Positions 8,877 to 36,411 of a DNA stretch of 36,643 bases are shown piece after piece. The translations under genes were made by a program, and so were the position numbers. The notes beneath the pieces are model-generated. The model worked only from the letters and a program-made list of their open reading frames with translations, was not told the origin of the DNA and did no database searches. Every line of letters starts with the position of its first letter. Position 1 is the first letter of the stretch. This DNA comes from a virus: positions 1 to 36,643 of the IMG/VR virus record IMGVR_UViG_3300031631_000010. One strand, 5' to 3'.

Positions 8877-8879
8877 AAC

Positions 8880-15043: not shown

Positions 15044-15248
15044 AGGGTATAGTAAAGATAAGATGGATGCACAGCTTAAGTTAATCTTCAAGGACATACA
15101 ATCCTTAGCTACAGCTGCCTTGGACATTGAGGATACACTACTAGAGGAATCAAAGGAGGATCTATTGACTACCTTTGGTACTACAGTGGATACCTTGGTA
15201 GATACTTTAACTAACACGAAGTATATCATAGGAGGTACTAGTCATTGA
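15030..15248 (+). CDS. Small helical hypothetical protein
   Basis: 72 residues, start overlapping the previous gene by 14 bases, end overlapping the reductase start by four. Mostly helical and acidic (MDAQLKLIFKDIQSLATAAL, DIEDTLLEESKEDLL), with a Thr-rich second half. No family recognised. Tight coupling suggests it is made together with the ribonucleotide reductase. Confidence 0.6.
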   Translation: MTKVKGYSKDKMDAQLKLIFKDIQSLATAALDIEDTLLEESKEDLLTTFGTTVDTLVDTLTNTKYIIGGTSH

Positions 15249-17179
15249 CAAGTGTAAGAGCACAAGTAATAACCAGACGTACATACAATAGACCTACGAA
15301 GACAGGGTATGAAACGTGGGAGGACACAGTTGATAGAGTCATTAAGCATCAAGGGTGGTTGTGGGATAGGGCTTTAGGTAAGCCCTTCCCTGACGGTACA
15401 GACTATCAGGCTATCTGTCCTGAGCTAGAAGAACTAAGACAGCTCATGTTAGAACGTAAGGTAATGGTATCAGGTAGAACCCTATGGTTAGGGGGAACAG
15501 AGGTAGCTAAGAAGCGTGAGGCTTCTCAGTTTAATTGTGCACACTTAAAAGTGGAGACTATACATGACGTTGTTGACTCTTTGTGGTTGCTGTTACAAGG
15601 ATGTGGTGTCGGCTTTACGCCAGTTGTTGGGACACTCTCAGGCTTCACCCAACCTATTACAACAAGTACGATCTTACGGTCTAAACGTACAAAGAAAGGA
15701 GGACACGAAGGAAACAAAGAGTCTTTCGATAGTGGGACTTGGACAGTTACAGTTGGAGACTCCGCTGAAGCTTGGGCAAAGTCTATCGGTAAGATTCTGG
15801 CATACAAAGGGAAAGCTACAGAGTTCGTACTTGATCTCACTCAACTCAGACCAGCAGGACAACGGCTGGCAGGATACGGGTGGATCTCTTCAGGTGATGG
15901 GCCAATATCAAAAGCCTTCACAGCTATTGTTCGGATTCTAACCAAGAAGGCAGGGCAGTTACTGAGTAAGATGGACATCCTAGATGTTATGAACTGGTTA
16001 GGTACTGTGTTATCTTCTAGGAGATCAGCAGAGATAGCCCTGGTCTACCATGATACTCCAGATTGGGAACAGTTCGCAAGAGCTAAGGAGGACTTAGCAT
16101 CCACACCACATCGTGCTCAATCTAATAACAGTGTAGTATTCTGGAGGGAACCAAGTGATAGTGAACTCGACATGGTCTTTCAAATCATTAAAGAATCAGG
16201 AGGATCGGAGCCGGGAATTATTAATGGAGAGGAAGCTAGACGCAGAGCACCTTGGTTCTCAGGAGTTAACCCTTGTGCTGAAATACTCCTTGGGAACAAA
16301 AGTTTCTGTAACCTTTCCGAAGTTGATCTATTTAAATTCAAGGATGACAGCGGTGGGTTGGATAGGGCTTTGTTTCTTGCAGGTAGGGCTAACTATAGGC
16401 AGACACTTGTCAACCTCGATGATGGAATACTACAAAGAACTTGGCACGAGAACAATGAATACCTTCGTCTCTGTGGAGTCGGACTTACAGGGATCGCCAC
16501 CCGTGAAGATCTTAATTCGTATGATTATAAAAGGTTTAAAAACCTAGCCATCCACGGAGCATACTCTATGGCTGACGAGCTAGGCACTCAGCGGCCTAAA
16601 AATGTTACTACTATTAAACCTAGTGGTACACTAAGTAAGATCATGGACACCACTGAGGGCTGTCACAAGCCAATGGGTAAGTACATCTTTAACAATGTTA
16701 ACTTTAGTATCAATGATCCTATGTTACCTAAGCTAAGGGAAGCGGGGTATCATGTTATACTTAATCCTACTGATGAGCATAACGCCATCGTCACATTCCC
16801 AGTAGCTTGGGAGAACATTAGGTTTGATAAGGAAGGAGATCTTTATGTCAATAAGGAGTCTGCTATTGAACAACTCACAAGATACAAGTTACTCATGGAT
16901 TCTTACGTGGAGCAGAACTGTTCGATTACGGTATCTTATACAGAAGATGAAGTCCCTGCTATTAGAGATTGGCTTAAGAGTAATTGGTCTAGCTATGTTG
17001 GTGTTAGCTTTCTTCCCATTACTAATACTACCTACGAGTACCTCCCCCAAGAAGTAGTTACGGAGGCTAGGTATAAAGAGTATGTATCACAACTAACTGA
17101 TGTAGATTTTAGTGACACTGATAGTACACATGAGATAGAGAATGATGAGTGTGAGTCAGGTGTTTGTCCTGTTAAATAA
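15245..17179 (+). CDS. nrdJ: Ribonucleoside-triphosphate reductase, class II (B12-dependent), monomeric
   Basis: Converts ribonucleotides to deoxyribonucleotides for replication, using adenosylcobalamin. 644 residues, started by TTG 15245 with GGAGG upstream. It matches the monomeric RTPR type: C98 in QFNCAHL, radical C344 with N342 and E346 in NPCAEI, C355 in SFCNLSEV (the same 11-residue spacing as C408/C419 in the Lactobacillus enzyme), and a C-terminal redox pair C636-x4-C641. There is no separate small subunit nearby, as expected. Typical of marine podoviruses. The host or its surroundings must supply cobalamin. Confidence 0.94.
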   Translation: MTSVRAQVITRRTYNRPTKTGYETWEDTVDRVIKHQGWLWDRALGKPFPDGTDYQAICPELEELRQLMLERKVMVSGRTLWLGGTEVAKKREASQFNCAHLKVETIHDVVDSLWLLLQGCGVGFTPVVGTLSGFTQPITTSTILRSKRTKKGGHEGNKESFDSGTWTVTVGDSAEAWAKSIGKILAYKGKATEFVLDLTQLRPAGQRLAGYGWISSGDGPISKAFTAIVRILTKKAGQLLSKMDILDVMNWLGTVLSSRRSAEIALVYHDTPDWEQFARAKEDLASTPHRAQSNNSVVFWREPSDSELDMVFQIIKESGGSEPGIINGEEARRRAPWFSGVNPCAEILLGNKSFCNLSEVDLFKFKDDSGGLDRALFLAGRANYRQTLVNLDDGILQRTWHENNEYLRLCGVGLTGIATREDLNSYDYKRFKNLAIHGAYSMADELGTQRPKNVTTIKPSGTLSKIMDTTEGCHKPMGKYIFNNVNFSINDPMLPKLREAGYHVILNPTDEHNAIVTFPVAWENIRFDKEGDLYVNKESAIEQLTRYKLLMDSYVEQNCSITVSYTEDEVPAIRDWLKSNWSSYVGVSFLPITNTTYEYLPQEVVTEARYKEYVSQLTDVDFSDTDSTHEIENDECESGVCPVK

Positions 17180-20853: not shown

Positions 20854-21834
20854 ATGTCGGTTACAGACACTAGTGCTCCCGTCCTTACAATGTCCCGAAC
20901 GGGCCAAGCTAACTCTGCAGGTGATTCATCTGCGTTGATGCTCAAGGTCTATGCTGGGGAAGTCTTGACTGCTTTCGAGCAAGCAAGTGTAACGATGGAT
21001 AAGCATGTTATTCGTTCAATCAGTTCAGGTATTTCAGTACAGTTTCCATTGGTATGGAAGACTGCTGCTACGGAGTACGCTTATATCAATGGTTCAGGTA
21101 ACACTGGAACTACGGGTATTGAGTTGGACGGAACAATTATTCACAAGAACGAGAAGGTCATCTCTATTGATGGTCTCTTGATTGCTGATCACTTTGTGAA
21201 CAACTTGGATGAGGCTATGTCTCACTTTGAAGTTCGCTCTATCTACGCTAAGGAAGCTGGTATTGCCTTAGGTACACAGTGGGATCAGAATGTATTACAA
21301 CAGGGTGTATTAGGAGCACGGTCATCTACGCTTATCACTAGTGGTAACGGTGGTGCTGTTCTAACTAATGCCTCTTATGGAACTTCAGGTTCCACCTTAG
21401 GTTCAGGACTCTTTGATGCTGCTGAGCAGCTTGATGAGAACAATGTCCCTGAGAATGATAGGTATATGTACGTCCGTCCTGCTCAGTATTACCTGATGGC
21501 AGAGACTACTTCACTTATAAACCGTGACTGGGGCGGAAGTGGAGTATATTCAGAAGGCGAAGTTATGAAGGTTGCTGGTATTCACATTGTGAAGACTAAT
21601 AACCTACCTATTACTAACGTAAGTTCCTCACAAGTGACTACACATGACGGTGACTTTAGTACGACTAAAGCTTTGGTTATGCACAAGTCATCAGTTGCTA
21701 CTGTGAAGCTATTAAATCTAGCTGTGGAAACTGAGTATCAAATTAAAAACCAAGGCTGGATCATTGTAGCTAAGTATGCAATGGGACATGGCTACATTCG
21801 ACCAGAAGGTTGTGTCGAATTTAAAACCTCTTAA
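20854..21834 (+). CDS. Major capsid protein (T7 gp10-like)
   Basis: Builds the icosahedral shell. 326 residues against 345 for T7 gp10A. Family blocks include LKVYAGEVLTAFEQASVTMD near the N-terminus, the HK97-type E-loop area (FPLVWKTAATEYAYINGSG), RSIYAKEAGIALGTQWDQNV and RPAQYYLMAETTSLINRDWG. Leucine codons favour TTG, CTT and CTC over the CTA common in neighbouring genes, in keeping with very high expression. Strong TTAGGAG ribosome site. Confidence 0.97.
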   Translation: MSVTDTSAPVLTMSRTGQANSAGDSSALMLKVYAGEVLTAFEQASVTMDKHVIRSISSGISVQFPLVWKTAATEYAYINGSGNTGTTGIELDGTIIHKNEKVISIDGLLIADHFVNNLDEAMSHFEVRSIYAKEAGIALGTQWDQNVLQQGVLGARSSTLITSGNGGAVLTNASYGTSGSTLGSGLFDAAEQLDENNVPENDRYMYVRPAQYYLMAETTSLINRDWGGSGVYSEGEVMKVAGIHIVKTNNLPITNVSSSQVTTHDGDFSTTKALVMHKSSVATVKLLNLAVETEYQIKNQGWIIVAKYAMGHGYIRPEGCVEFKTS

Positions 21835-21851
21835 GGGAAAGGATATAAAAT

Positions 21852-22685
21852 ATGACTGATATAGCTAATATCCAATCTCTTGCTGTTGCTGCAGATACCG
21901 TTACCAATGTAGAGCTTGTACAGCCCTATGCTGATAACGCTACTGTGGGAACGTCATTTGAAACAATCTCCAACACCAATGCTGATCAGGTTTTTCCTGT
22001 TCTAGCTGGTGCGGATATTGATGTAGTATCTGCTGACGCAGCCGATGACGTTGGAAGTACTGGAGCAACAAGTGTACGAGTAACGTACCTTGATGCCAGT
22101 TCAAATCAGGCAACTCAAGATGTTGCTATGAACGGCACTACCCCAGAAGAAATGACTGAGCAGACCATTTCCTTTATTCAGAAAGCAGAGATTGTTGCTT
22201 CTGGTACGGGACTTGCTGCTGCTGGTGCTATCACCATTGCTGACGTAACTGGTGGTGGTGTACATGCGCTCATTGATGCAGGTTCTAAAGAGTCAGGTAA
22301 CTGTACTTGGAAGATCCCTGCTGGTCACACTGGTTATGTTCATGGATTCTGGTATGATGTAGATTCTGTGGCTGCTGGTGTTGGTACTGTTGACATTGCT
22401 TTACAAGTAGCACATGCTGAGTCTTCTGGAGTTGCTAACTCAGAGACATGGCGTACTATTGCTAAAGTAACAGTAGTAGAAAGTGACAATGATATTGTGG
22501 CTGCTACTGGTGGTAATCAGAACAACATGGGTACATTTTCCTTTCCAGGGAATATTCCTTTTGTTGTCCCTGCTAAAAGCATGGTACGTTTGGCTGCTAA
22601 ATCGCCAGCTGCTGTTGCTGTTACTGCTGGCTTTAGTCTGTCAGTACAGGGTTCAGGTGCTGGTACTACGATCACAGATAGTTAA
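21852..22685 (+). CDS. Putative capsid decoration or head-associated structural protein
   Basis: 277 residues, beta-rich, Ala/Val/Thr/Gly-dominated, almost free of Lys and Arg. The first half reads like an Ig-like or decoration fold seen in marine phage structural proteins (SVRVTYLDASSNQATQDVAM, NGTTPEEM, IQKAEIVASGTG). The second half has SGNCTWKIPAGHTGYVHGFW and FVVPAKSMVRLAAKS, a receptor- or particle-surface-type domain. It follows the capsid gene by 17 bases and lies before the terminator-like hairpin, so it is probably made in large amounts. Confidence 0.65.
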   Translation: MTDIANIQSLAVAADTVTNVELVQPYADNATVGTSFETISNTNADQVFPVLAGADIDVVSADAADDVGSTGATSVRVTYLDASSNQATQDVAMNGTTPEEMTEQTISFIQKAEIVASGTGLAAAGAITIADVTGGGVHALIDAGSKESGNCTWKIPAGHTGYVHGFWYDVDSVAAGVGTVDIALQVAHAESSGVANSETWRTIAKVTVVESDNDIVAATGGNQNNMGTFSFPGNIPFVVPAKSMVRLAAKSPAAVAVTAGFSLSVQGSGAGTTITDS

Positions 22686-22691
22686 ACTATT

Positions 22692-22724
22692 GGGGAGGGC
22701 TAGGATAGACTCCCCTTCTTTTCT
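22692..22724 (+). terminator. Terminator-like hairpin after the capsid module
   Basis: GGGGAG (22692-22697) pairs with CTCCCC (22710-22715) around a 12-base loop, followed by TTCTTTTCT. It stands seven bases after the stop of the decoration-like gene, the equivalent of the T-phi terminator downstream of the T7 capsid gene. The T-run is interrupted, so partial read-through into the tail genes is likely. Confidence 0.7.
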
Positions 22725-22741
22725 AATTAGGAGAACAAATT

Positions 22742-23332
22742 ATGGCAGATACAAGCAGAACTGTCACAGATATGGCAAGCAATCTGTTTCAAGACAGTCA
22801 GGCTGCTGGATCTATTACGCCTCAGGATCTTAGAGATTTAGTAGAGACTTGCCAAACCAAACAAGGCAGTATATATGTAAGCACAGCTAGTGCTACAACA
22901 ATTGCAGGACAAGCTAATGTCACACCTACCTCGCTTACCAACATGGTAGCAGTAGAGACAGCAGCTACATTTACTCTTAGCACAGCTCCAACAGCTAATG
23001 AGTTTGATATGAATACAGATGGACAGCTAAGGTACACTGGTACTCCCACTACGAATGTCTTCTTTACAGCTTCAGTAATGCTGGAAATTGTGACAGCTGT
23101 AGTTAACATGGAGTTGGTCATGGCTGTAACCAAAGGTGGAGCTATTGTACCAGGTGCTAAGATTGGTGGATTCTCTCCAGCAACCACAACTAACTCAGTA
23201 CCTTTGTCGGTCTCTGGTTTTGCTTCAATGGCTACCAATGACTACTTGAATATCTTTGTAGGTAACGTGGATGGTACAGGTAATGTAGTAGCACGGATGG
23301 CCCAACTTACAGCTTTCTCTTTGGTGACTTAA
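22742..23332 (+). CDS. Putative head-fibre or virion protein with jelly-roll-like C-terminus
   Basis: 196 residues. A short helical N-terminal region (DSQAAGSITPQDLRDLVETC) that could anchor to the particle precedes a beta domain (LRYTGTPTTNVFFTASVMLE, AVTKGGAIVPGAKIGGF, ATNDYLNIFVGNVDGTGNV). This pattern resembles the TNF/C1q-like jelly rolls of trimeric phage surface proteins. The function is inferred. TTAGGAG ribosome site, placed between capsid and tail-tube genes. Confidence 0.6.
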   Translation: MADTSRTVTDMASNLFQDSQAAGSITPQDLRDLVETCQTKQGSIYVSTASATTIAGQANVTPTSLTNMVAVETAATFTLSTAPTANEFDMNTDGQLRYTGTPTTNVFFTASVMLEIVTAVVNMELVMAVTKGGAIVPGAKIGGFSPATTTNSVPLSVSGFASMATNDYLNIFVGNVDGTGNVVARMAQLTAFSLVT

Positions 23333-23333
23333 A

Positions 23334-23939
23334 ATGGCATTTATATCACAGGTTCCTATGACAGAACTTCAAGCAGTCAATATTCTGTTGGCTGCTATAG
23401 GTGAAGCAGCTGTATCTAGTTTAGAAACAGCTACTACTGTGGAAGTTACTCAGGCTAAGAACTTGTTAAGCAACACCAACAGAGCAATACAGCAGAAGGG
23501 GTGGCATTTCAATACAGAGTGGGATGTTATTATGACCTTGGATTCTGAAAGTCTAGTACCAGTAGGTTCTAATGTACTGTCTATTATGATTCCAAATAAA
23601 CTAACTACCTTAAGAGGACGTTCTGGTTCTCCTTTTCTATATGACTTAGAGAACAATACATTCACCTTTGGGAGTGCTCCTAACAATGCTGTTACTATTA
23701 CATTACTTGATTTTGTGGATACACCACACACGTTCAGGCAGTATGTAACCGTAAGATCAGCTAGGATCTTCCAAGAGGAGATCGTAGGTCAGGTGTCTGC
23801 AGAACAGATCAACAGAATAGAAGAGAGTGAAGCCTATGCAGATCTCTTGGATGATGAAACAGATAGAGCTGGATACAATGTAGGATATAGTGATGTTGAT
23901 ATGTATAATATAACTAAGAAACATAGGAAGCTCTGGTAG
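23334..23939 (+). CDS. Tail tubular protein A, adaptor (T7 gp11-like)
   Basis: Forms the ring connecting portal to nozzle. 201 residues against 196 in T7. It starts with the typical TELQAVNILLAAIGEAAVSS, followed by AIQQKGWHFNTEWD, and later carries VTVRSARIFQEEIVGQ. The next gene begins immediately after its stop. Assignment rests on these blocks plus the fixed gene order. Confidence 0.95.
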   Translation: MAFISQVPMTELQAVNILLAAIGEAAVSSLETATTVEVTQAKNLLSNTNRAIQQKGWHFNTEWDVIMTLDSESLVPVGSNVLSIMIPNKLTTLRGRSGSPFLYDLENNTFTFGSAPNNAVTITLLDFVDTPHTFRQYVTVRSARIFQEEIVGQVSAEQINRIEESEAYADLLDDETDRAGYNVGYSDVDMYNITKKHRKLW

Positions 23940-26426
23940 ATGCCTCTAATATCTGAACAAATAAGTAACCTAATCAATGGTGTTTCACAGCAACCTCCTA
24001 GTTTACGACTAGCCTCCCAAGCACAAGTACAAGAGAATGCTATGGCTACGGTTGCTGAGGGTCTTAAGAAGAGACCACCATTAGAGCATGTAACTAAGCT
24101 TAATAATAAAACAGATATTGATGCTAAAGTTCACTTTATAAACAGGGATGCTAATGAGAGATATGTAGTTCTAGTAACTTCAGATCAGTTTGATTCAGCA
24201 TTCTCTGGTGACTTCTCTGGAACAGAGATGGAGATGTTTAGTTTAGACTCTCCGGTTAACACTTGGGATGTTTCTTTTAGTGAAGCCTTTGGTCCACATG
24301 TTTACTCTCGTGTAATCAGTGGTGGATCTTCAGGTGACACCTTACCTTACATTACAGTTAAGGATGCTAGAGATAACCTAAGGTTATTCACTGTAGCCGA
24401 TACCTCCTTTGTATTAAATAAGACCCTAGTAACAGCTAAGAGTACCTCTACGGCAGCCTCACGTGCCCCTGAAGGCATTGTTTTTCTTAAGCAAGCCTCT
24501 AATGCTACTGCCTTTAAAGTCTTCATAGACGGCACTGACGTAGGCTCTATATCTAATAATAACAGTGCTGATATTTTAGTTACAAATATAGCTAATGCTA
24601 TGGCTACTCCCGGCTTCACGATTACTAAGTTTGGTAGTAGTAATGTTCATGTTACCAAAAATGATGGGTCAGACTTCACCTTACATGCGGAAGCTCCCTC
24701 AGCTAACATGATAGCCATTAAGGATACTGTAGTAGACTTCACGGACCTCCCTGCTAGAACCAAAGATGGGTTTATCATTAAGGTCACAGGTGATCCTGGT
24801 AGCTCTTCAGATGACTACTGGTTAAAACATAACAATCAATCAGACGTAGATACAGGTGAGTGGGTAGAAACTGTAGAACCAGGTTTAGCTAATACTATTG
24901 ATCCTACTACGATGCCTATTAAGCTCACTAGATCTGCCCCTGATCCTTGGGATGATGCCTTTGCTGATGACTATGGTACTGACGAGTTCAGTCTAGCTCA
25001 GATTACATGGACAGATAGAGTAATTGGAGACCTAGAGACAGCTCCTGATCCTTCCTTTATTGGGGAGACATTCAATGACATGTCCTTCCATAAGAATAGA
25101 TTAAGTTTCCTAGCTGGTGAGAATATTATACTCTCTGAGTTAGGGGAGTTCTTTAATTTCTATGCAACTACGGCTACTGATCTCTTAGATACAGATCTTA
25201 TTGATCTAGCTGCACCTACTAATGAAGTCAGTACACTACAGAACTTTGTACCCTTCAATGAAAACCTGATGATCTTTAGTGACTTCTCTCAATTTAAATT
25301 GACAGAGTTTGCTGCTGGAGGTCTCACTCCAACTAACGCTAAGTTATCCCTACTCACACAGTATGATCATGAGAAGCTTGTAACACCTGTAGTTAATGGT
25401 AGAAAGCTTTACTTCAGTGATGAGAATGATGGCTTCAGTGTTATACGTGAGTTTGGTGTCATAGAAGATCTACAAGAAGAGACAGCTGAAGATATCACAA
25501 GTCATATCCCTAGTTACATTAAGGGTAAAGGATTTTCTATAGTAGTTCATGAGGAGTTCTTATTTGTACTATCAGATGAGAATCTAAATGAAGTCTTTAC
25601 TTATAAGTTCCTATTCCAAACTGGTCAGAAGAAGTTAAGCTCGTGGGGTAAGTGGGTCTTCAAGCCTGAAGAGAAGGTCATAGGCGTTAAGATCATAGAA
25701 CATATAGCATACTTTATTATAGTAAGACCTGACGGTACATACTTAGATAAGATGTCCTTACAGGATGCTAACCTAGTGGGTCTCACAGAGTCTCCTACCC
25801 AGCTCCCCTTTAAGGTACACCTTGACAGACTAGTAGAGTCTAAAGGCGTATATGATTCAGCAGCAAACACTACTACTTGGTTTGTACCTTATCCTGATAA
25901 CTTTGGATCTACCTTTAGAGTAGTCCTTGGTCCTCAATGGGTAGGCAGAGAAGGTTCCTTAGTACAGAGTATAACCCAGATTCATACAAATACTATGGTT
26001 ATGCTTAGGGCTACTGGTGACTTCTCCACACATAATGTATTCATAGGTAAAGAGTACCAGTTCCTGTATGAGTTCACTGAGCCTACTATTAAGACAGAAG
26101 TAGGTGGTAGATTAAGTTCTCTCTCAGGTGGTATCTTGAAGATCCGTAAGTTTAACATAGATTATTTTAAGACAGGATACTTTAAGATGAAGATAACTGC
26201 TCCCGGTAGGGAAGCTTTTAATCATGTATTCACTGGACGTATCCTTGGTTCTGCTCTTAATAAGATTGGAACTATCCCATTTGAGACAGGTAGCTTCAAG
26301 AAGCTCATACTCTCAGATGCTAAGGATCTTAAGATAGAACTAATATCAGACTCATACCTCCCCTGTGCCTTCACTGGTGCTGATTGGGAAGGAAATTATG
26401 TAGTCAGAACTGTAGCTAGAAGGTAA
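23940..26426 (+). CDS. Tail tubular protein B, nozzle (T7 gp12-like)
   Basis: Forms the hexameric nozzle that carries the fibres. 828 residues against 794 in T7. The N-terminus SNLINGVSQQPPSLRLASQ, then AEGLKKRPPLEHV, is diagnostic. The middle contains FNDMSFHKNRLSFLAGENII and QFKLTEFAAGGLTPTNAKL, also typical. The start codon is an ATG directly abutting the previous stop (TAGATG), so translation is coupled. Confidence 0.96.
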   Translation: MPLISEQISNLINGVSQQPPSLRLASQAQVQENAMATVAEGLKKRPPLEHVTKLNNKTDIDAKVHFINRDANERYVVLVTSDQFDSAFSGDFSGTEMEMFSLDSPVNTWDVSFSEAFGPHVYSRVISGGSSGDTLPYITVKDARDNLRLFTVADTSFVLNKTLVTAKSTSTAASRAPEGIVFLKQASNATAFKVFIDGTDVGSISNNNSADILVTNIANAMATPGFTITKFGSSNVHVTKNDGSDFTLHAEAPSANMIAIKDTVVDFTDLPARTKDGFIIKVTGDPGSSSDDYWLKHNNQSDVDTGEWVETVEPGLANTIDPTTMPIKLTRSAPDPWDDAFADDYGTDEFSLAQITWTDRVIGDLETAPDPSFIGETFNDMSFHKNRLSFLAGENIILSELGEFFNFYATTATDLLDTDLIDLAAPTNEVSTLQNFVPFNENLMIFSDFSQFKLTEFAAGGLTPTNAKLSLLTQYDHEKLVTPVVNGRKLYFSDENDGFSVIREFGVIEDLQEETAEDITSHIPSYIKGKGFSIVVHEEFLFVLSDENLNEVFTYKFLFQTGQKKLSSWGKWVFKPEEKVIGVKIIEHIAYFIIVRPDGTYLDKMSLQDANLVGLTESPTQLPFKVHLDRLVESKGVYDSAANTTTWFVPYPDNFGSTFRVVLGPQWVGREGSLVQSITQIHTNTMVMLRATGDFSTHNVFIGKEYQFLYEFTEPTIKTEVGGRLSSLSGGILKIRKFNIDYFKTGYFKMKITAPGREAFNHVFTGRILGSALNKIGTIPFETGSFKKLILSDAKDLKIELISDSYLPCAFTGADWEGNYVVRTVARR

Positions 26427-26428
26427 AC

Positions 26429-26875
26429 ATGAAGCCGTACCATAGAGTATCTACCTTAGAGGACATGGCATACTTGTCATTGAACCTAAGGTATGAAGAT
26501 AAACGTGAAGTAGAAACACTAGGACATACTCCTGAACAATCCCTAGCCTTAGGCTTTGGTCATAGTCGTATATGTAGGTCTATTATAAACCATCGTGGGA
26601 TAGTAGTTGGAGTCTATGGTGTAGTTCCTTTGTCTGACATTACAGGACAAGTATGGATGTTAGGATCAGAGGGATTAGTTAAGATCAAGACTACCTTCTT
26701 GAGACAATCAAGATCAGTAGTTGAGGGGTTGAATGAGATATTTCCTCACCTCTGTAACTTTATAGATAGCCGCAACGATGTTCACCTCAGGTGGATCAAC
26801 TGGTGTGGCTTTAAGATAATTGGAGAAAAGATGATTAATAATGTGAAGTTCTATGAATTCTGTAGGGTAGCTTAA
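26429..26875 (+). CDS. Internal virion protein A-like (T7 gp13-like), GNAT-type fold
   Basis: 148 residues, located where T7 has gene 13 (138 residues). The pattern of helix (EDMAYLSLNLRYEDKREVE), strands (GIVVGVYGVVPLSDITGQVW) and a late WINWCGFKIIGE block matches the small acetyltransferase-like proteins found at this position in many podoviruses. In T7 gp13 is needed for morphogenesis. Enzymatic activity is not implied. Start two bases after the nozzle stop. Confidence 0.8.
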   Translation: MKPYHRVSTLEDMAYLSLNLRYEDKREVETLGHTPEQSLALGFGHSRICRSIINHRGIVVGVYGVVPLSDITGQVWMLGSEGLVKIKTTFLRQSRSVVEGLNEIFPHLCNFIDSRNDVHLRWINWCGFKIIGEKMINNVKFYEFCRVA

Positions 26876-27450
26876 TGAGTGAATGGTTATATGCTGCCCA
26901 ATTTGCTTTGTCAGCTGCCAGTGCTGCTAACGAGTATCAACAGGCTGAACAACAGGCTGCAGAACAGAGAAGGCAAGCTGGACAACAAGCAGCTATTAAT
27001 AATAAGTTAGCTTATAATGCTCACCTTAATCTAAATCAGCAGCAGATGCTAGAAATGCAGAAGTTTGGTTTTGAGAAGAGAGATCTTCAGAAGAGCATAA
27101 GAGCTAAGAGAGCTACTAATGAAGCAATACGAGCTAGTTTTGGTGGATCTTTAGGACAACAAGGGGCCACCTTGGATGCTACTATCCTAAATATTAATAG
27201 ACATGGGTTTGAAGCTCTTGCTCGTAAAGACTTAAACTTTAAGACTCTAGCAGCTGACTTCAATATTAGACACAGAAATGTAACACTAGAGACAGAGAGT
27301 AAAAACAATCAAGCTTTCAGTGGATTAAGTACTGGTGGAAGTGCTCTAGGAACAGGCTTAAGTATCTTAGGTACTGGACTACAGACTAAAATAAACTATG
27401 ATAAAGGTACTACACGAACTGTATCAACACCTCCTCCAGGTACTAAATAA
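26875..27450 (+). CDS. Internal virion protein B-like (T7 gp14-like)
   Basis: 191 residues against 196 in T7. Ejected at infection, in T7 to make a channel through the outer membrane. Here the N-terminus is an Ala-rich helix (AAQFALSAASAANEYQQAEQ) followed by Gln-rich helices. The protein contains a segment RRQAGQQAAINNKLAYNAHL and a Gly-rich section near the end (LSTGGSALGTGLSILGTGLQ). It overlaps the genes on either side by one base. Confidence 0.85.
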   Translation: MSEWLYAAQFALSAASAANEYQQAEQQAAEQRRQAGQQAAINNKLAYNAHLNLNQQQMLEMQKFGFEKRDLQKSIRAKRATNEAIRASFGGSLGQQGATLDATILNINRHGFEALARKDLNFKTLAADFNIRHRNVTLETESKNNQAFSGLSTGGSALGTGLSILGTGLQTKINYDKGTTRTVSTPPPGTK

Positions 27451-30400
27451 TGCCATCTTCTGAAAAACTCTTTACATTAGACCCTGTAAAGACCTCTCTT
27501 ACTAAAACTACTACAGATGTTAAAGTACAGGGTCCAGCTAATAGGACTGTGGAAAACAGTCAACTATTAAAAGGAGTACAAACCTTTAGTAGTGCAGTGG
27601 GATCTCTTGCTGAAGTTAAGAAACAGAAACAAATAGCTGATGATACTCTCCTAGCTAACAATGCAGCTATCAGAGGAGAAGCAGAACCAGCTGGAATATT
27701 TGGTATAGCTTCTGAATCATATGACAGAATAGTTGAAGCTAATACTCTAACTAAAGCCTCAAGAGATATGCAAGCTTTTATAGATGGCTCTGAAGGTGCT
27801 GATTTAGTTAATGCTACTGGTTCATATAGTGAGAATGTAGCTGCTGCAGATAAAGCTTTTGATACCTTTAAAGCTTATGGAGCATCCTCCTATCTAAATC
27901 CCCAGCTGTTAAATGAATTTTATAGTACCGTAGAGACAAAGAGAAACGAAGTTAAAATAGAAATAGCTAAGGTCAATAAAGAGCGCAATAGATCTCAAGT
28001 TATTCAACGAATAGTAAACGTAGTTGATACCGTAGTTGATGTTAGTAAAGACATCTTTCAAGGTGGAGTAGAGTCTGATTCATCTGACATAGAAGGTACT
28101 GATGAGTATCCAATTCTTTTCTCCTTAGATTCTAATATCACACCCGAATTAGTCAATACCCTTGCTGCTGATACAGTAGCTTTAAACATGGGTTTAGAAC
28201 TTCCAGAGGCACAACGGTTGGTAATGCAAGTGTTCCTTCAGAATGAGACTGTTATAGCCCAACCTTCTCTTGCAGATAAGTTAATGTCTAGTGAGTATTC
28301 TCCTGGTGTTACTTATGAGGCTTTATATATTAAAGGATCACTTGCTTCTAATAAAGACAAGGATGCTGCTGATATTTTTAAGATGAGGAATGCACAGATA
28401 TCTGCTACTAATGCCCACTTTGAAAACCTAGATAAACAAGATGAAGACGATGCTAAAAAAAGAACAGCCAGGGGTAAAGAAGCTGTAGCCAACTCTCTTA
28501 AGGGTGGTGGATCAAATGAAGATGCTTATGGAACAGGAGTACAGTTTGGACTGGCAATACAGGATGTAACTAAACTCATTACTGCACAAGAAAGTTTCGA
28601 GGGTAACGTAAAACTTGGACTTGATTCCCCACAAGGAATATCACTTATGAAGCAGATAGCAAATGGAGGAGTAACTCCAGAAGATATAGCTATAGCTATA
28701 CATGACCAAAACTTAGATCCAGGTGATGAGGAATTCTACAAAGTACTAGCATCTAAGGAGAAGACCCAAACCCTAGCTGCTCAGAAATCCTATGATAGCC
28801 AGATAAAGATAGTTAAATCAAATACATTGCAGTTACTTAAAGGTGCTCTAAACAATAATAGTGCGGTGACACTAGATGAAAATGGTAAGGTGAAGTTCGA
28901 TCTGGTTGCACTTGCAGCACAAGCTGTGGGAGGTTCTCAGGGTCTAGACTCTGCCGAAGTACAAGACGTAATGGTAAGACTACAAACACTACAAAATGAC
29001 TATGAGTATAGGTCTAATGAGGCTGCCAGAGAGGTAGCTAGATCTGATACTTTTGATAGGGCTGCTGTAACTAAGTTTGGTGATGATTATAATAATGCCG
29101 TTGCTCTCTTTATATCAGATCTAAAAAAGAATATTATTTCTTCAAGTGCTGCTAAGAAGGAGAGGAAGAAAGAAGCTGACAAAGCAGCAGCTGACAAAGT
29201 AGTAAAAGATACAAAAGTAGGGGATGAAACAAAAGATAAAGTTGAGACTATATTACCTCCTCCGCTCTCTACTAAAGACCAGATTGAAAACCTTACAGAA
29301 CTAAAAACAGATTCTAAAGGCTTGATAGATAGACTTCTAGAAGACAGTAAGATCTTATATGATAACTTACAAGTGAGTAAACCAAAAGAACCAACAACCG
29401 GAGCAGACCTCATTTCTCCTAAGGAACCAGTATTATCTCCAGGAGAACAGACATACTTGGATACGTTAACTAAGGAAGCTCCAGAGGTAACAGGTCAAGT
29501 AGAAGGTAAACAGCCTCGTACTACAGGACTAGGACCAGCTGCGGATGCTATAGACTCCTTCTTTGATAAAGTTGGTGACAACGCTAATTTCCTTGTGGAA
29601 ACTCTAAGTGATATGCAAAGAGAGAAGTTCTTCTATAATACTTTTAAAGAATTCTTTAGTCCTAATGAAGCAGGAGCAGCTGATTCTAGTACTGATGGTT
29701 TTGATCCAGATGCTCCTGGCCCAAGCGACTTTAATGATAATAATGATCCTACAGATGGTGAAATAACTTTAACTAAAGGTCCACCATTAGTATTAAGAGA
29801 GGATACAGGTAAAGTTACGTCTGAGGGACGTAGGGTATATAAGAACAATCTAGGCGGGGAATCTTCTGAGTATACTATAGGAGTCAAGAACTCTAAAATA
29901 AACAACGGTGAACTAACTCACATACCTAGTATATACAAGGGTAAACTAGTAACCGAAGAAGAAGCTATAAGAATTATTTCTGAGAATGATGGTGTAGATC
30001 CAGAAACAGGTAGATTTATTACTGCTGGTGGAGATCCTGAGGCTAGATCTAAAGCTATTACTTCTAGTAAAAATAATATTGCATATTCTTCTTTTGGTTC
30101 TTCTGGTACAGAGTTTACTAGAAGTATGGCAAACCTACCTACTAACCATAAGTTCATGGCTGAATCTGAGTTCTCTAAGGGAAACTTTAAAGACCTAGGT
30201 TCTAAACCTTATGTGTCTAGCATCTTAGCAGGAGAATTAAACTTAAAAGGAAAAGCAAGATCTATAACAGATGTTAAAGATGTTCCTAATACTAATAGTA
30301 TACATGGGGACAAAGTTAAAGCAGGAAAAACAGGACTTACCATAGGCTTTGGTCACGACATATCACCTCAAGAGTTAAAGTCTGGTGAGATACATGGAGT

Positions 30401-30839
30401 ACCTTTTGTAAAAGATGGTAAGTTTATTGATGTTGGAGTAGAAGCTTTAACTGAAATATTCAATGCAGACTTTGAACATCACAAAGGGAGAGCTGAACGT
30501 ACATTCAATAGTAAAGTTGGAAACTCTGTAGGTTATAAGTTTGAAGAGCTGCCTACTGAGGTTCAGGACTTTATGACAGATATCGACTTTAATATGGGCC
30601 TTACTAAAATACCTAAATCTCTAGCTATTATTAAATCTATAATATCAACAGCTTTAAGAACTAAGCGTGGAATAACTGAAGTTTCCATGGAGCCTGTTCT
30701 CAATGTACTGGAGAAAGAGATTAAGGAACGTGACACTAAGAACCCTGAAAGCGGTGTTCAACGGAGATCTAATAAAGCTTTTAAAGACTTTAGAACAAGA
30801 GAAGGACTTAAAAGCTTATTTAAACTTAAAGGTAACTAA
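27450..30839 (+). CDS. Internal virion protein C-like (T7 gp15-like) with C-terminal lysozyme-like domain
   Basis: 1129 residues against 747 for T7 gp15. Residues about 1-590 are helical and resemble the ejected core protein gp15. A Lys/Pro/Glu-rich linker follows (about 590-760). A small domain at about 773-870 (TIGVKNSKINNGELTHIPSI, YKGKLVTEEEA) is of a type often found in large phage virion proteins. The last 200 or so residues hold TGLTIGFGHDISPQE (T964, H969) and FMTDIDFNMGLTKIP, resembling phage GH24/pesticin-type lysozymes. In T7 the wall-cutting domain is instead in gp16. Catalytic Glu not assigned. Confidence 0.82.
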   Translation: MPSSEKLFTLDPVKTSLTKTTTDVKVQGPANRTVENSQLLKGVQTFSSAVGSLAEVKKQKQIADDTLLANNAAIRGEAEPAGIFGIASESYDRIVEANTLTKASRDMQAFIDGSEGADLVNATGSYSENVAAADKAFDTFKAYGASSYLNPQLLNEFYSTVETKRNEVKIEIAKVNKERNRSQVIQRIVNVVDTVVDVSKDIFQGGVESDSSDIEGTDEYPILFSLDSNITPELVNTLAADTVALNMGLELPEAQRLVMQVFLQNETVIAQPSLADKLMSSEYSPGVTYEALYIKGSLASNKDKDAADIFKMRNAQISATNAHFENLDKQDEDDAKKRTARGKEAVANSLKGGGSNEDAYGTGVQFGLAIQDVTKLITAQESFEGNVKLGLDSPQGISLMKQIANGGVTPEDIAIAIHDQNLDPGDEEFYKVLASKEKTQTLAAQKSYDSQIKIVKSNTLQLLKGALNNNSAVTLDENGKVKFDLVALAAQAVGGSQGLDSAEVQDVMVRLQTLQNDYEYRSNEAAREVARSDTFDRAAVTKFGDDYNNAVALFISDLKKNIISSSAAKKERKKEADKAAADKVVKDTKVGDETKDKVETILPPPLSTKDQIENLTELKTDSKGLIDRLLEDSKILYDNLQVSKPKEPTTGADLISPKEPVLSPGEQTYLDTLTKEAPEVTGQVEGKQPRTTGLGPAADAIDSFFDKVGDNANFLVETLSDMQREKFFYNTFKEFFSPNEAGAADSSTDGFDPDAPGPSDFNDNNDPTDGEITLTKGPPLVLREDTGKVTSEGRRVYKNNLGGESSEYTIGVKNSKINNGELTHIPSIYKGKLVTEEEAIRIISENDGVDPETGRFITAGGDPEARSKAITSSKNNIAYSSFGSSGTEFTRSMANLPTNHKFMAESEFSKGNFKDLGSKPYVSSILAGELNLKGKARSITDVKDVPNTNSIHGDKVKAGKTGLTIGFGHDISPQELKSGEIHGVPFVKDGKFIDVGVEALTEIFNADFEHHKGRAERTFNSKVGNSVGYKFEELPTEVQDFMTDIDFNMGLTKIPKSLAIIKSIISTALRTKRGITEVSMEPVLNVLEKEIKERDTKNPESGVQRRSNKAFKDFRTREGLKSLFKLKGN

Positions 30840-33800
30840 TGGCAGAAGAAACTAATAATACCTCAAGTGTCCCTCTGAGTATAGAGGATCAAATACGTAA
30901 CAGCTACGTTCCAAATAGAGCTGCTAGGGACCGCTTTGAGGCTACACCTGAAGCTCCTCAAGAGGAACAACTAGAAGCTCTACGTATAGAAACTGCACCT
31001 ATAATTGAACAAGAGACTGCCAATATAGCTAATGAGCAAAAGGGTTTCTTTAGTGAAGTTGGTGAATTCTTTACGGAAGCTGGTAAAGGGGCAGTAGAGG
31101 GTGTTATTGAAGAACCGGGTCAAGCACTTGGCTTACTTCCCGACAACTACTTTGGTTTTAAAGAACCTAAAGACTTTGGTGATAAGTTAGCTAGAGGAGC
31201 TGGACAAGCTTTCTCTTTCTTTATCCCAGCAGCTGGGGGTGTCCGTATAGGACTTAAGTTAGCTGGATTATTCCAGAAGTCAGGAAAGTTATCCAAAGCT
31301 GGAGCTTTCATAACCAATTCTACAGCAGGTGCTCTTACAGATGCCTTTGCATTTGATCCTAGAGATCCTAATGCTGCGGATCTAGCGTTAGCCCTTGGTG
31401 TAATCTCTAAAGACAGTAGAGCTGGAGCTGCTACAAAGGAGTTCTTAGCACAAAAGGACACAGACCCTGAAGCTACAGCTAGATTTAAAGCTGCTCTTAC
31501 TGGGTTGATAGCTGGTGGTTTAATTGATCTACTAATTAAAGCAACAGGGGCTACCAGAAGGGCATTTAAAAAGCCTAAAGTAGATCCTAATGATCCTAAC
31601 GTACCTAGTGGTCCTGCTGATCCTAGTGATCCTAAAGTGGACCCTAGTAAAGTTGACCCTAGTGGAGACGCACTAGGTAGTTCTCTACCCAAAGGAACAC
31701 AAGAAGCAGCTGATGAGCTTGCTGAAGGGTTTGTTGAAGGATTAGAGAAACTACGTAATGATGGTGATCCAAATAAGATTAATCCTATCAGAGAAGCTCT
31801 TCCTGATGAAGGCCCAGCTCGTAAACAAACTGCTGAAGAATACAATAATGATCCTAGAAGGATCTTTGAAGATGCTGAGGGTAATGCTCAAGATATCCCA
31901 GCTCCAATAGTAGAGATGCTAAACAAGCTAGGCCGTGGAGAAACAATTCCAGACCAGAACTTAGATGAACTACTGTCTGTGAACTTCTTAAAGTCTGGAG
32001 CATCTGCTGACATTAATAATGTTCTTCAGTTTATATCTAGATATATGGATGTTAAGGGATTAGTTAAGCCCTCTATTGCTACAGCTGATTTTGATATTGT
32101 AATACCTGAGATGCTGACAGACCTTGTACATGGAGATGCTGCAGCTATAACTAATATAACTGAAATCATACGTAAACAGACTCTTAGTACGAATGAATCT
32201 ATCAAACTTATAGGAACTGTCAAAGCTCTCAAGGCTATACAGCTTAGAAAACTAGCTAAGGCAAATACTGCTTTCGCTCAGAGTGCCTCACCAGCTGATA
32301 AACAGATTCGATTAAAAGAGATGCAGATTCTAAACACCCTACTCTTTAACGGTGCAGGACTGTCTAAGGCCACCTCAGACGCTCTGAGAGCATATGGTAA
32401 GATGGGGCCATCTATTGAGAACCCTGATATAGTTAAACATGCTGTACAACAGAGATTCGTAGAACCTGTTATCGAAATACAGCGCACAGCTGCAGGACAT
32501 ACGTCTAAACTTGATAGACTAGATAAGTTAGCTACTGAGGAAGTTAAGTCTCAAACTACTGGTGCTAAAGCAAGTACAGAGATTACAGATTCTTCATCAC
32601 TACTTGAGGTTACAGGTAAGGCTGGTCCTGGTAGGAAGCGTAAGTTCACTGTTAATACCTTTAAAGAAACTCCTACAGGTAAACGTATAGCATCTGCTAT
32701 TAAGAAACTAGAATCAACACTACTAAGTCTCAAACGTCCTGAACGTGGAGAACCCTTTCCTAAGAAGAAAGCTTTAAAAGACATTGCTAGTCCTGAACAG
32801 TTAGCTACTATCAACGCTATCAAGGCTGATATTAAACGTGTCAAAGGAGAACGAGACACCCTATTCAATAAATTTAAGAAAAATGCTAAGCCACAACTCA
32901 AGTTACGTAAGAAGTTCGAGAAACTCTCTAAAGAGATAGAGAAACTACAAGAAGGTATAGATCCTAGAGCTGAGAAGAGTCAAAGGGATCAAATAACTAG
33001 TCCTGATATAGCTACTCTACAGGCTGAACGTAATAAATTACTAGCTAAACTGAAGCCTCTAGATGAAACAGAGCGTATACTACAGAATCTTAATGATGAA
33101 TTCTCTGATCTACTAATTAAACGACTAGATAATGATTTTGGTACTGTAACTAAAGTAGAAAAGGAAGTTATAGGTAAAGATATAAGAGAAGCTATTAAGA
33201 GAGAGAAGGAAAGAGCTAAGGATGCTATTAGAAACTCAGAAATAGAAGAGGCATTCTCCCTTAGAGCCACTGCAGCAGAGCTTAAAGACATAGATGAGAT
33301 GACATTTAGTCAACAACGTACTCGATTAGCTGCTATGGATAGGGGATTTACATCTAAATCTTTTAAAGCTCTATCTGAAGTCTATGTTAATGGACTATTG
33401 TCTTCAGGTAAGACTATAGCTGTTGTTAATCCAATGGGTACTATGTCTTCAATTGTCTCTAGTATCTTTGAGAGATCCATAGCTGCCCTTAAAACGTCTT
33501 TAACAGGCAAGGGAGATGTGGACTTTCAAGAAGTAATCACTCTAAGCTGGAATTATATGGCAGGACTTCCTGATTTCTTTAGAGTTATGGGGAAAGCCTT
33601 ACGTCATGGTCCTTCAGATCCTAATTTTAAAGTGGATTACATGAATGTTAGGGATAGAGGTATCAGTAAAGAGGCTTTTAATGTAGGAGGAAACCTAGGG
33701 AAAGCTGTAGATTACGTAGGAACAGCTGTTAATCTTCCTGGTAAACTTCTAATATCCACTGATGAGGCTTTTAAAGCCCTTATAGGACGAGCTGAGCAGA

Positions 33801-35356
33801 GGGCATTGTCTTACCGTAAAGCTCGTAATGAGATAGGGTTAACTGGAGGTGTGGATAACAAGGCAGCTATTCAGAAGAGGACTCAAGAGATCCTTGATGA
33901 TGTATTAAATCATGAGGACATCTTAGAGCAAGCAAGAGCTTCAGCAGCTAAGAACACTTTTACTAACGTCCTACCTGATAGAATTGTTAAAGATGCCTTT
34001 GGTAAAGAACACCCAGTGCCGGGAGTAGCTAAGAGTATTAAGACTTTTATAGACCAAAGAGATCCAACAGGTATCTCTAGAATCTTTATTCCTTTCTTCC
34101 AGACCCCCGCTAATATCTTTAATTTTACCTTTGAGCGTACTCCTCTTATTAATAGATTCAGTAACTCTCTTAAACAAGAACTTAAGAGTACTGTTCCAGG
34201 TGTTAAAGAGTTAGCTGAGGCACGTATGGCTAGTGCTTGGGTTATCTGGGGAAGCCTTGCGACACTCGCTTATCAAGGTAACTTCACAGGTGCTCCCCCT
34301 AGAGATCCTGCATTAAGAAACACTATGGAACGCTCTATGGGTGGGCGTGGTTGGTGGAGTGCAGACTTTGGTAATGGTCTAAAGACTTATGATAGGTTTG
34401 ATCCCTTTGGATTGATCCTATCAGCATCAGCTATTGCTGCTAATATGATGAAAGGTATGACTAATCTGGCTGGACAGTATGTACGTGGAGACGATTCTGA
34501 TGCTATTGAAGAGAAGTACAATGAAGTTCTAATGGCTGGAGTTATAGGAGTATCGGAACTACTTAAAAATAAAACCTTTCTATCTAGTATAGGTGAACTG
34601 GTAGATGTATTCAGTACAGACGGTAGAAGTACTAGTAATACCCTTCGTAAGTTAGTTAGTTTTGATCCTCGAATAAGTTTATACTCCAGTTTACGCAGGG
34701 ATGTCACTAGATATAATGATCCCACTAGACCTGAGAAACTACAAGAACGAGAAACAGTAGGAGACACTCTGTTTGAAAGGTCTGTTAGTGGTATTACCAA
34801 TGAAATTGCTACAGTATTTCAAGAAGGTCTAGACTCTACTATGTTTGGTTGGGGAAATAGGTTTGCTATGAAGGACCTAGCGGGTAATGTAGTACAATAT
34901 CCCGGCACTAACCAAGAACTAGACGTTACATTAGGTGCAGTTCAGCATATGTTGTACCCTCTTAAGGGTCTTCAGAAGTCTAAAAGTCCTCTGATTAATA
35001 AACTTGCTGAGTTAGAATCTAAAATAGGACAACCTTCAGCCTTGCATAAAGTTAATGGAGTTATGTTAACTGATGAGGAGAAGGCTTTTACTATAGATAT
35101 ATGGACAAAACAGAATAAAATTCTTGATAAGATGGTCGTTGCCAAGGGTTTTAATCAGATTCCTCCTGAGATGCAATTAAGAATGCTAAAGAATCTTATT
35201 AATCAAAATAAACGTAATGCTATTGAAGTAGCTAAAGATAAATTTAGTAGACTTAAACAGTCAACACAAGAAGCCAAAGAAGATACATTTGAAAGACTTG
35301 TATCTCTTAATCCTGTCCAAGGATTTCAACCTCCAAATACTCAAGGAACTAACTAA
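30839..35356 (+). CDS. Internal virion protein D-like (T7 gp16-like), large ejection protein
   Basis: 1505 residues against 1318 in T7. The N-terminal region has amphipathic and hydrophobic segments (ARGAGQAFSFFIPAAGGVRI, TGLIAGGLIDLLIKATGA) but no lytic transglycosylase motif that I can see. An Asp/Pro-rich repeat linker lies at about residues 246-275 (VDPNDPNVPSGPADPSDPK). A long coiled coil spans roughly 640-830 (LKLRKKFEKLSKEIEKLQEG). The C-terminal part includes ISRIFIPFFQTPANIFNFTF and QYVRGDDSDAIEEKYNEV, blocks I associate with gp16-like ejection proteins. Role: DNA translocation channel. Confidence 0.87.
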   Translation: MAEETNNTSSVPLSIEDQIRNSYVPNRAARDRFEATPEAPQEEQLEALRIETAPIIEQETANIANEQKGFFSEVGEFFTEAGKGAVEGVIEEPGQALGLLPDNYFGFKEPKDFGDKLARGAGQAFSFFIPAAGGVRIGLKLAGLFQKSGKLSKAGAFITNSTAGALTDAFAFDPRDPNAADLALALGVISKDSRAGAATKEFLAQKDTDPEATARFKAALTGLIAGGLIDLLIKATGATRRAFKKPKVDPNDPNVPSGPADPSDPKVDPSKVDPSGDALGSSLPKGTQEAADELAEGFVEGLEKLRNDGDPNKINPIREALPDEGPARKQTAEEYNNDPRRIFEDAEGNAQDIPAPIVEMLNKLGRGETIPDQNLDELLSVNFLKSGASADINNVLQFISRYMDVKGLVKPSIATADFDIVIPEMLTDLVHGDAAAITNITEIIRKQTLSTNESIKLIGTVKALKAIQLRKLAKANTAFAQSASPADKQIRLKEMQILNTLLFNGAGLSKATSDALRAYGKMGPSIENPDIVKHAVQQRFVEPVIEIQRTAAGHTSKLDRLDKLATEEVKSQTTGAKASTEITDSSSLLEVTGKAGPGRKRKFTVNTFKETPTGKRIASAIKKLESTLLSLKRPERGEPFPKKKALKDIASPEQLATINAIKADIKRVKGERDTLFNKFKKNAKPQLKLRKKFEKLSKEIEKLQEGIDPRAEKSQRDQITSPDIATLQAERNKLLAKLKPLDETERILQNLNDEFSDLLIKRLDNDFGTVTKVEKEVIGKDIREAIKREKERAKDAIRNSEIEEAFSLRATAAELKDIDEMTFSQQRTRLAAMDRGFTSKSFKALSEVYVNGLLSSGKTIAVVNPMGTMSSIVSSIFERSIAALKTSLTGKGDVDFQEVITLSWNYMAGLPDFFRVMGKALRHGPSDPNFKVDYMNVRDRGISKEAFNVGGNLGKAVDYVGTAVNLPGKLLISTDEAFKALIGRAEQRALSYRKARNEIGLTGGVDNKAAIQKRTQEILDDVLNHEDILEQARASAAKNTFTNVLPDRIVKDAFGKEHPVPGVAKSIKTFIDQRDPTGISRIFIPFFQTPANIFNFTFERTPLINRFSNSLKQELKSTVPGVKELAEARMASAWVIWGSLATLAYQGNFTGAPPRDPALRNTMERSMGGRGWWSADFGNGLKTYDRFDPFGLILSASAIAANMMKGMTNLAGQYVRGDDSDAIEEKYNEVLMAGVIGVSELLKNKTFLSSIGELVDVFSTDGRSTSNTLRKLVSFDPRISLYSSLRRDVTRYNDPTRPEKLQERETVGDTLFERSVSGITNEIATVFQEGLDSTMFGWGNRFAMKDLAGNVVQYPGTNQELDVTLGAVQHMLYPLKGLQKSKSPLINKLAELESKIGQPSALHKVNGVMLTDEEKAFTIDIWTKQNKILDKMVVAKGFNQIPPEMQLRMLKNLINQNKRNAIEVAKDKFSRLKQSTQEAKEDTFERLVSLNPVQGFQPPNTQGTN

Positions 35357-36411
35357 TGGCATTCTACGCTAAAGACATATACACTGCGGATGGTAGTACT
35401 CAAAGTTTTGCAGTAACCTATCCATTTATCAGCAGAGACCATGTGTCTATAACGGCTGATGGTGTTGCTGCAACCTTTACATGGGTTAATGATGGTCAGA
35501 TTACCATCACTAGCCCTGCTTCTCTGTCTTCAGAGACTATAATTATTAAACGTAACACTAGTCCTACTAAACGCTTAGTTGATTACATAGATGGTAGTAA
35601 TCTAACTGAGGTTGACCTTGATTTAGACAGTAATCAAGCCTTCTATCTAGCTCAAGAGAACAATGATGAGCAGGGCTTAATAGACACTAACTCTGTAGCT
35701 ACCTCAACTAACATCTTGGTAGCTGATGGGACTGATTTTAACAGTGTAACTGTCACTGGGGATGTTACAATCACCAATGCTGGTGTCACAGCTATAGGTG
35801 CTGATAAGATTTCTGCTGCTAACATAGTAGATGAGGCAATTAACTCAGAACATTACACTGATGGTTCCATTGATACTGTACATATTGCAGACTTGAATGT
35901 AACCACAGGTAAACTAGCTAATGATGCTGTAACAGGAGCTAAGATAGCTCTATTTGATGATGCTTATGAGGCTACTTCAGCTCATATCCTAGTAGCTGAT
36001 GGTACTGACTTTGATAATGTAGCTGTTACAGGTGATATAGCTATCACTAATGCTGGGGTTACTTCTATTGCATCAGGAGTAGTTATCAATGCAGACATTA
36101 AGTCTGATGCTGCTATAGATGCTACTAAGATACACAGTGGTACTATCAGTAATACAGAATTTGGTTATCTTAATGGTGTAAGTTCTAATATTCAGACTCA
36201 ACTACAAGATATAGTAGCGGGTACAGTATCTGATGTACAGGATAATACGTTCAGAATTCAGGATAACGCTGACAATACTAAAGAAATAGCCTTTGAAGTA
36301 AGTGGTGTAGCTACAGGTACTACTCGCACGCTTACAATGCCTGATTCAGATGTAAATTTAGGTGGTATGTCTACTAACGGATTCGCAATAGCAATGGCTG
36401 TAGCACTTTAA
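35356..36411 (+). CDS. Tail fibre protein with T7 gp17-type N-terminal domain
   Basis: 351 residues. Residues 1-115 match the particle-anchoring domain of T7 gp17 (TADGSTQSFAVTYPFISRDH, KRLVDYIDGSNLTEVDLDLD). The rest is beta-rich with two copies of a 30-residue repeat, (N/H)ILVADGTDF then VTGD(V/I)xITNAGVT, at about 119-147 and 211-240. The end (LTMPDSDVNLGG) resembles fibre segments of marine podoviruses. It is much shorter than T7 gp17 (553), so the receptor-binding tip may be in a following gene. Start overlaps the gp16-like stop by one base. Confidence 0.9.
   Translation: MAFYAKDIYTADGSTQSFAVTYPFISRDHVSITADGVAATFTWVNDGQITITSPASLSSETIIIKRNTSPTKRLVDYIDGSNLTEVDLDLDSNQAFYLAQENNDEQGLIDTNSVATSTNILVADGTDFNSVTVTGDVTITNAGVTAIGADKISAANIVDEAINSEHYTDGSIDTVHIADLNVTTGKLANDAVTGAKIALFDDAYEATSAHILVADGTDFDNVAVTGDIAITNAGVTSIASGVVINADIKSDAAIDATKIHSGTISNTEFGYLNGVSSNIQTQLQDIVAGTVSDVQDNTFRIQDNADNTKEIAFEVSGVATGTTRTLTMPDSDVNLGGMSTNGFAIAMAVAL

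Follow-up and report, generated by a model that had tools for sequence, protein, structure and literature searches.

A divergent T4-lysozyme-type domain on the gp15-position ejection protein of a marine T7-like podovirus, and the variable slot that holds it

The gp15-like proteins of phages K1E and K1-5 bear a lysozyme activity that in T7 resides on gp16; swapping of this kind has been called 'thematic' (PMC8954989). SP6 gp36, K1-5 gp38 and phiKMV gp36 are described as virion lysozymes, the domain of phiKMV gp36 being C-terminal (Latka et al., 2017, PMC5380687). Here we consider the same position in a marine T7-like podovirus, IMG/VR record IMGVR_UViG_3300031631_000010, whose 36,643 bases were analysed as a whole (the window; the ejection and fibre genes given below, with their parts, lie on the plus strand). 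The open reading frame at 27450–30839 encodes, from an ATG, an ejection protein of 1129 residues flanked by gp14-like and gp16-like genes, and this protein ends in a divergent domain of the GH24/T4-lysozyme type at residues 919–1124 (30204–30821). We propose, with a probability of roughly 0.82, that it is a gp15-position protein whose GH24-type muramidase domain would act at wall passage and that the domain occupies an exchangeable cassette slot.

A lysozyme on the gp15-position protein is an already known layout, of which the window holds a divergent member. As in SP6 and phiKMV, the gene lies between the gp14-like and gp16-like genes and before the fibre, the lysozyme is C-terminal, and none is found in gp16. 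With SP6 gp36, K1-5 gp38 and K1E gp35 (Molineuxvirinae), the window shares the order gp14-gp15(lysozyme)-gp16-fibre and the GH24 domain in the C-terminal part, but it differs in a core without detectable similarity, an extra small domain and a divergent active-site region; the K1-5 lysozyme and the window domain are about 22% identical over 110 residues. phiKMV gp36, a gp15-position protein of 898 residues, likewise has a C-terminal GH24-type lysozyme in the same gene order; however, pairwise BLAST does not match it to the window domain, and it has the canonical T4-type YKDADGYSVGLGH motif. The N-terminal lytic transglycosylase of T7 gp16 presumably does the same work, making a hole in peptidoglycan at entry from within the ejected conduit, but it sits on the other protein, at the other end, and belongs to another enzyme class (SLT) that is absent from the window. 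The catalytic domain of pesticin is the top structural match and has a T-x5-D spacing also present in the window, whereas pesticin as a whole is a bacteriocin with receptor and translocation parts and without sequence match to the window domain.

The C-terminal domain and its candidate active site

A GH24 profile made from 32 other phage lysozyme domains (a 33-row alignment minus the window row) was compared with the open stretches in all six frames of the window, and it scored a single open reading frame, that at 27450–30839, with an E value of 1.4e-14, the next best reaching 0.11. With the nearest relative, L066, also removed, the window frame still scored at E 5.6e-13. The same profile finds the K1-5 lysozyme at E 1.9e-58 (residues 731–918) and that of phiKMV gp36 at E 5.6e-9 (residues 759–865). 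The last ~225 residues of the window protein resemble the C-terminus of the same-position protein of L066 (24% identity, E 2e-12), and the latter leads in turn to K1-5-type lysozymes at the gp15 position and to T4-like tail lysozymes (E 1e-5 to 0.1), to the PHROGs family phrog_4290, 'lysozyme domain-containing protein' (E 3e-5), and weakly, under the gathering score, to PF00959. An AlphaFold model computed with the 33-sequence alignment (mean predicted local confidence, pLDDT, 75.0, mostly >80 over residues 70–220 of the fragment; predicted template-modelling score 0.72) has a lysozyme fold with a small lobe and a helical large lobe. Its top structural match is pesticin (Z 8.0, with 160 residues aligned by structure at 14% identity), followed by the GH24 muramidase 8b2s (Z 7.0) and T4 lysozymes (Z about 6.5–6.7). 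All of the top 50 structural rows are pesticin, GH24 muramidase, phage endolysin or T4 lysozyme, the last either by itself or within a fusion construct. The model aligns with T4 lysozyme residues 1–160 across 134–147 residues, each single score being moderate in significance. An earlier model from three sequences was poor (pLDDT 48.5), and its best matches were nonetheless pesticin and T4 lysozyme.

In T4-type lysozymes the catalytic Glu closes the first helix and a Thr sits in the next hairpin. The predicted first helix of the window domain spans residues 919–931, and its sole acidic residue, Glu929 (30234–30236), is near the end of it and aligns within one residue of the conserved E-N of the family, the automatic alignment shifting it by one column relative to the family Glu. 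In SP6-type relatives this Glu opens an E-N-x(4)-G motif, in place of which the window reads E-L-N-L-K-G. Thr964 of TIGFGH (30339–30341) is, by alignment, the equivalent of T4 lysozyme Thr26 and pesticin Thr201; its column holds Thr in 26 of the 33 rows, Ser in five and Asp in two. The Asp of the Glu-Asp-Thr triad might be either of two residues, alignment and model both being uncertain near Glu929. One is Asp944 (30279–30281), a candidate equivalent of the T4-type Asp20 that aligns with the K-D of K1-5 'PYKDAHG', although this alignment is uncertain and another one pairs Asp944 differently. The other is Asp970 (30357–30359), which lies six residues past Thr964, the spacing of T201-D207 in pesticin (both taken from PDB titles), at a place where most relatives have Lys. 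Muramidase activity of the window domain is likely.

Several results pull in the other direction. Searches of Pfam, PHROGs and PDB sequences with the window domain gave no matches, and Pfam PF00959 did not match the window protein at E 1; since library searches come up empty, the domain lies below the usual detection threshold. In tblastn against named phages the whole protein had no match and its C-terminal part only weak ones (E 0.1 or worse), mainly to SP6-type proteins, while direct scans of viral and genome contigs, aimed at near relatives of the entire protein or of the domain, found only the contig of L066. The Foldseek E values of the model are not significant (best 0.25) and the best Z of 8.0 can be middling for helical folds, so that the case rests on the agreement of homology, profile and fold. 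Model confidence is low around Glu929 (blocks of 42–61), and the Thr follows the Glu at a distance of 35 residues, as against 15 in T4 lysozyme; because of these two features the active site is a candidate one, and the domain could lack activity. Let us consider, then, that the lysozyme fold has been kept in a catalytically dead form, as a module that would bind peptidoglycan or sugar and thereby tether the ejection tunnel to the wall. The E-L-N in place of E-N and the long insertion ahead of the Thr would suit such a module, as would Ser938 at a column that is Gly in 32 of the 33 aligned rows, the Asp that L066 carries where Thr is expected, and the LysM modules that fill the same position in relatives L002, L021, L061 and L076. 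The window nevertheless keeps Glu929, Thr964 and His969, Asp970 matches the T-x5-D spacing of active pesticin, and the K1-5 and phiKMV relatives are reported to be active lysozymes (PMC5380687). We regard a dead domain as unlikely and favor an active muramidase.

The gp16-like protein (30839–35356; phrog_6651 internal virion protein, E 2.6e-15) contains no GH24 or SLT domain by Pfam and two custom profiles, and the gp15-position protein contains no SLT domain by Pfam and the SLT profile, leaving the C-terminal domain as the one recognisable GH24 or SLT domain of the ejection genes. The SLT profile drew on domains of relatives, some linked to gp15 and others free-standing. Because it detects the transglycosylase of T7 gp16 (residues 6–86, E 1.7e-6), the negative for the window gp16 is meaningful. 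None of the gp16 proteins of the window's clade has a recognisable GH24 or SLT domain either. A BLAST match of residues 249–328 of L008 gp16 to the lysozyme domain (E 0.008) was rejected, as the GH24 profile does not list that protein. In L039, the gp16-like protein (L039:16409–20583) is divided between two neighbouring open frames of 658 and 731 residues that correspond to its N- and C-terminal parts.

The sequence-only reading of this stretch had proposed a lysozyme of the GH24/pesticin type within residues 900–1129, on the strength of the blocks TGLTIGFGHD (residues 961–970) and FNMG (residues 1047–1050), together with a gp16-like protein free of wall enzymes. The profile score and the predicted fold, with pesticin, T4 lysozyme and GH24 muramidase as its top matches, agree with the first proposal, except that the enzyme proper fills only about residues 919–1124 of that range. 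The scans of gp16 agree with the second, a transglycosylase there having been looked for and none detected. For the catalytic Glu, a candidate was found in the first helix, with a geometry that the model determines poorly.

Content of the slot between the gp15 and gp16 cores

The window protein exceeds T7 gp15 (747 residues) by 382 residues, in agreement with the ~380 estimated from the letters alone. Residues 1–540 (27450–29069) make up a core common to relatives, and the N-terminal ~520 residues show homology to the proteins that L002, L021 and L026 have at this position (E 1e-52 to 6e-31). By analogy with T7 gp15, this core is presumed to be the tunnel-forming part. It should be weighed against our proposal that an 8-member alignment of the core compared with T7 gp15 by hhalign gave a probability of 0.6%; because this comparison revealed no homology, the label 'gp15-like' rests on position and size. 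Homologues of gp15 are paired mostly via size and synteny in general (PMC8954989). As to homology of the core to the gp15-position lysozymes, the PM85 protein is matched by the whole window protein at E 1.5e-4, and the core used alone as query gives no match to it. Past the core follow a charged, low-complexity linker without family match (residues 541–786, 29070–29807) and a small domain (residues 787–877, 29808–30080). The latter, which the sequence-only reading had recognised as an extra domain ahead of the lysozyme, recurs in the gp15-like protein of L061 (residues about 771–874, 54% identity, E 9e-26), where the downstream sequence is different; among the loci compared, a profile of it matches the window and L061/L141 only.

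Relatives were gathered via the nozzle protein (64–91% identical to that of the window) and further via gp16 alignments; the 21 compared are all metagenomic contigs. Their gp15-position proteins have the N-terminal core in common (about 520 residues in the closest) and diverge beyond it. According to Pfam, this divergent part contains Phage_lysozyme in L036, L049 and L072, SLT in L053, L067 and L076, and LysM in L002, L021, L061 and L076, the LysM-containing C-terminal part being common to L061, L002 and L076 at 69–87%. In seven others (L023, L029, L031, L038, L070, L158 and L168), the core ends at about 590–690 residues and a separate gene of 245–309 residues precedes gp16. In L048, L161 and L164 it ends at 570–580 without a separate gene before gp16 (L048:1682–3421, L161:9046–10758, L164:8567–10273); no wall enzyme was recognised in these three, and theirs may lie in gp16 or belong to a type that escapes recognition. 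The order of ejection proteins in relatives, to which the sequence-only reading had looked for a check, thus has the gp15-position module fused in some, as in the window, and in others a separate gene before gp16, with variable content. Two modules are found in both states, fused in one member of a pair and free-standing in the other: L055/L038 (E 3e-12) and L039/L168 (E 2e-14). Labels given by eye (M15-like HxH peptidase for L055/L038, SLT-like for L039/L168/L015, NNPxN for L008/L026) are not established: PDB sequence searches with the slot proteins of L055, L038, L039 and L158 returned nothing convincing, and matches of the SLT profile to L039 and L168 are circular because both sat in the profile alignment. 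The slot holds GH24, SLT, LysM or unassigned modules, not every one of which is established as a wall enzyme. GH24-like slot domains with altered TIGYGH motifs (e.g. TSGIGL, TAMYGV) are present at L049:8695–9204 and L072:4630–5151, and these alterations suggest that some such domains may be inactive.

That the slot contents differ, and that they have been exchanged, can be read from the DNA of close relatives. The window and L002 are 88.9% identical over 21043–27360 and 89.1% identical again from 35354, with short traces only in between. As identity breaks off and returns at the fibre, gp15 and gp16 differ here as one block, whose right border is the tail fibre gene (35356–36411; PF03906, E 8e-20) with its conserved N-terminal part. 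L026 and L029 are 91.5% identical up to about gp15 residue 541 and regain similarity where gp16 begins, so that in this pair it is mainly the cassette that differs. Nozzles of L053 and L061 are 99.9% identical, with SLT in the slot of the former and the small domain plus LysM in that of the latter; L015 and L049, with nozzles 96.4% identical, also have different modules. On a nozzle tree, the 12 slot labels, several of which were assigned by eye, require 16 changes (minimum 11, shuffled mean 18.3), a count as low being obtained in 6 of 200 shuffles. A label-free comparison of the 11 pairs with nozzles at least 90% identical found full-length likeness of the slot in one, matches of only 29–64 residues in three and none in seven, and at 80–90% nozzle identity the slot was shared in 0 of 22 pairs. 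Slot content varies almost independently of relatedness among the 21 relatives.

Individual contigs are possibly chimeric, which also counts against our proposal, and one might ask whether the variation of the slot as a whole is an artefact of metagenome assembly, in which contigs were joined at conserved genes. The metagenomic origin of all relatives and the adjacency of the breakpoints to highly conserved genes would fit. Against this, many contigs have their borders at gene or domain ends, the reading frame is open across each fusion, arrangements recur across sample numbers (L015/L065; L059/L060/L062; L067/L075), and a module fused in one phage can have a free-standing homologue in another (L055/L038, L039/L168). 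We consider an artefact on this scale very improbable and take the exchange to be real.

Genomic setting and the question of lysis

The window has the usual T7-like order of single-subunit RNA polymerase, primase-helicase, DNA polymerase A, portal, capsid, tail tube and nozzle, and one-base TAATG overlaps link the genes from gp14 (gp14-like ejection protein, 26875–27450; PF24072, E 4e-11) through the fibre. The large terminase gene (1–1334) is truncated at the left end, and neither a small terminase nor a holin was recognised in the window. The record is for these reasons a fragment; genes typically found between fibre and terminase are absent from it, and it holds most of the T7-like gene set all the same.

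These details bear on whether the domain is chiefly a lysis enzyme, with endolysin function, that was fused to a virion protein by chance. Such a role might be suspected from the lack of any other detectable GH24 or SLT domain in the window and of an endolysin at the position of T7 gp3.5, between the gp3-like endonuclease and the gp4-like primase-helicase. A separate endolysin may exist, however, as the record is a fragment in which the fibre-terminase genes are missing, and the wall enzymes on gp15 or gp16 of T7, SP6 and phiKMV act at entry. We give the lysis role hardly any weight and retain action at wall passage.

Two observations concern other parts of the window. At 5256–5287 lies a 32-base sequence that has boxes resembling TTGACA and TATACT and recurs at 8879–8910 (88%), so that one copy precedes the RNA polymerase gene and the other closely follows it; the sequence is promoter-like and possibly a shared early promoter. 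A ribonucleotide reductase of the B12-dependent type (15245–17179; RNR_Alpha and RNR-II insertion domain matches) lies in the interval from exonuclease to portal.

Proposed role and its meaning for marine T7-like phages

By analogy with SP6 gp36, phiKMV gp36 and the transglycosylase of T7 gp16, we envisage that the C-terminal muramidase, of the T4-lysozyme/pesticin fold, would be packaged inside the head along with the gp15-position protein and would leave the head together with it at infection. The domain might then open a local hole in the host peptidoglycan, letting the conduit of gp15 and gp16 cross the periplasm. The cassette slot, bounded by the cores of gp15 and gp16, would have its content and its state of fusion exchanged via recombination among close relatives, probably as an adaptation to the host wall or in regulation.

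The sequence-only reading had the enzyme move between ejection proteins and change class. The different class and the place on the gp15-position protein hold, but the layout was already known, and perhaps another movement explains it better. Since modules at the one slot are gp15-fused, separate or, in T7, gp16-fused, what shifted may have been the gene boundary and not the enzyme; the slot enzyme would then read as the N-terminus of gp16 in T7, as the C-terminus of gp15 in the window and as a free gene in others. Such a view is drawn from layout, because the T7 gp15 and gp16 cores have no detectable homology to those of the clade.

We see an even chance that this uncultured marine T7-like clade possesses a true cassette site, at which peptidoglycan enzymes of unrelated classes (GH24, SLT, apparently peptidase-like and others) as well as LysM modules are swapped between near-identical phages, fused or free, in the manner of tail-fibre tips. 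What looks new here is the exchange around the lysozyme, the fused lysozyme itself being a further instance of the known layout. No paper describing such an exchangeable slot was found in the literature searched, and one may exist. Internal virion proteins have been noted among the genes of hypervariable islands in marine phages, for a reason called 'obscure' (Mizuno et al., 2014, PMC3909814). If the cassette site is true, it would explain the presence of internal virion proteins in marine metaviromic islands, a swappable wall-enzyme slot being a concrete and testable answer to that puzzle, and it would constitute a second, post-adsorption module of host adaptation. Pairs with near-identical capsid and tail genes and different modules, such as L053/L061 and L015/L049, would then be natural experiments on the matching of entry enzyme and host wall.

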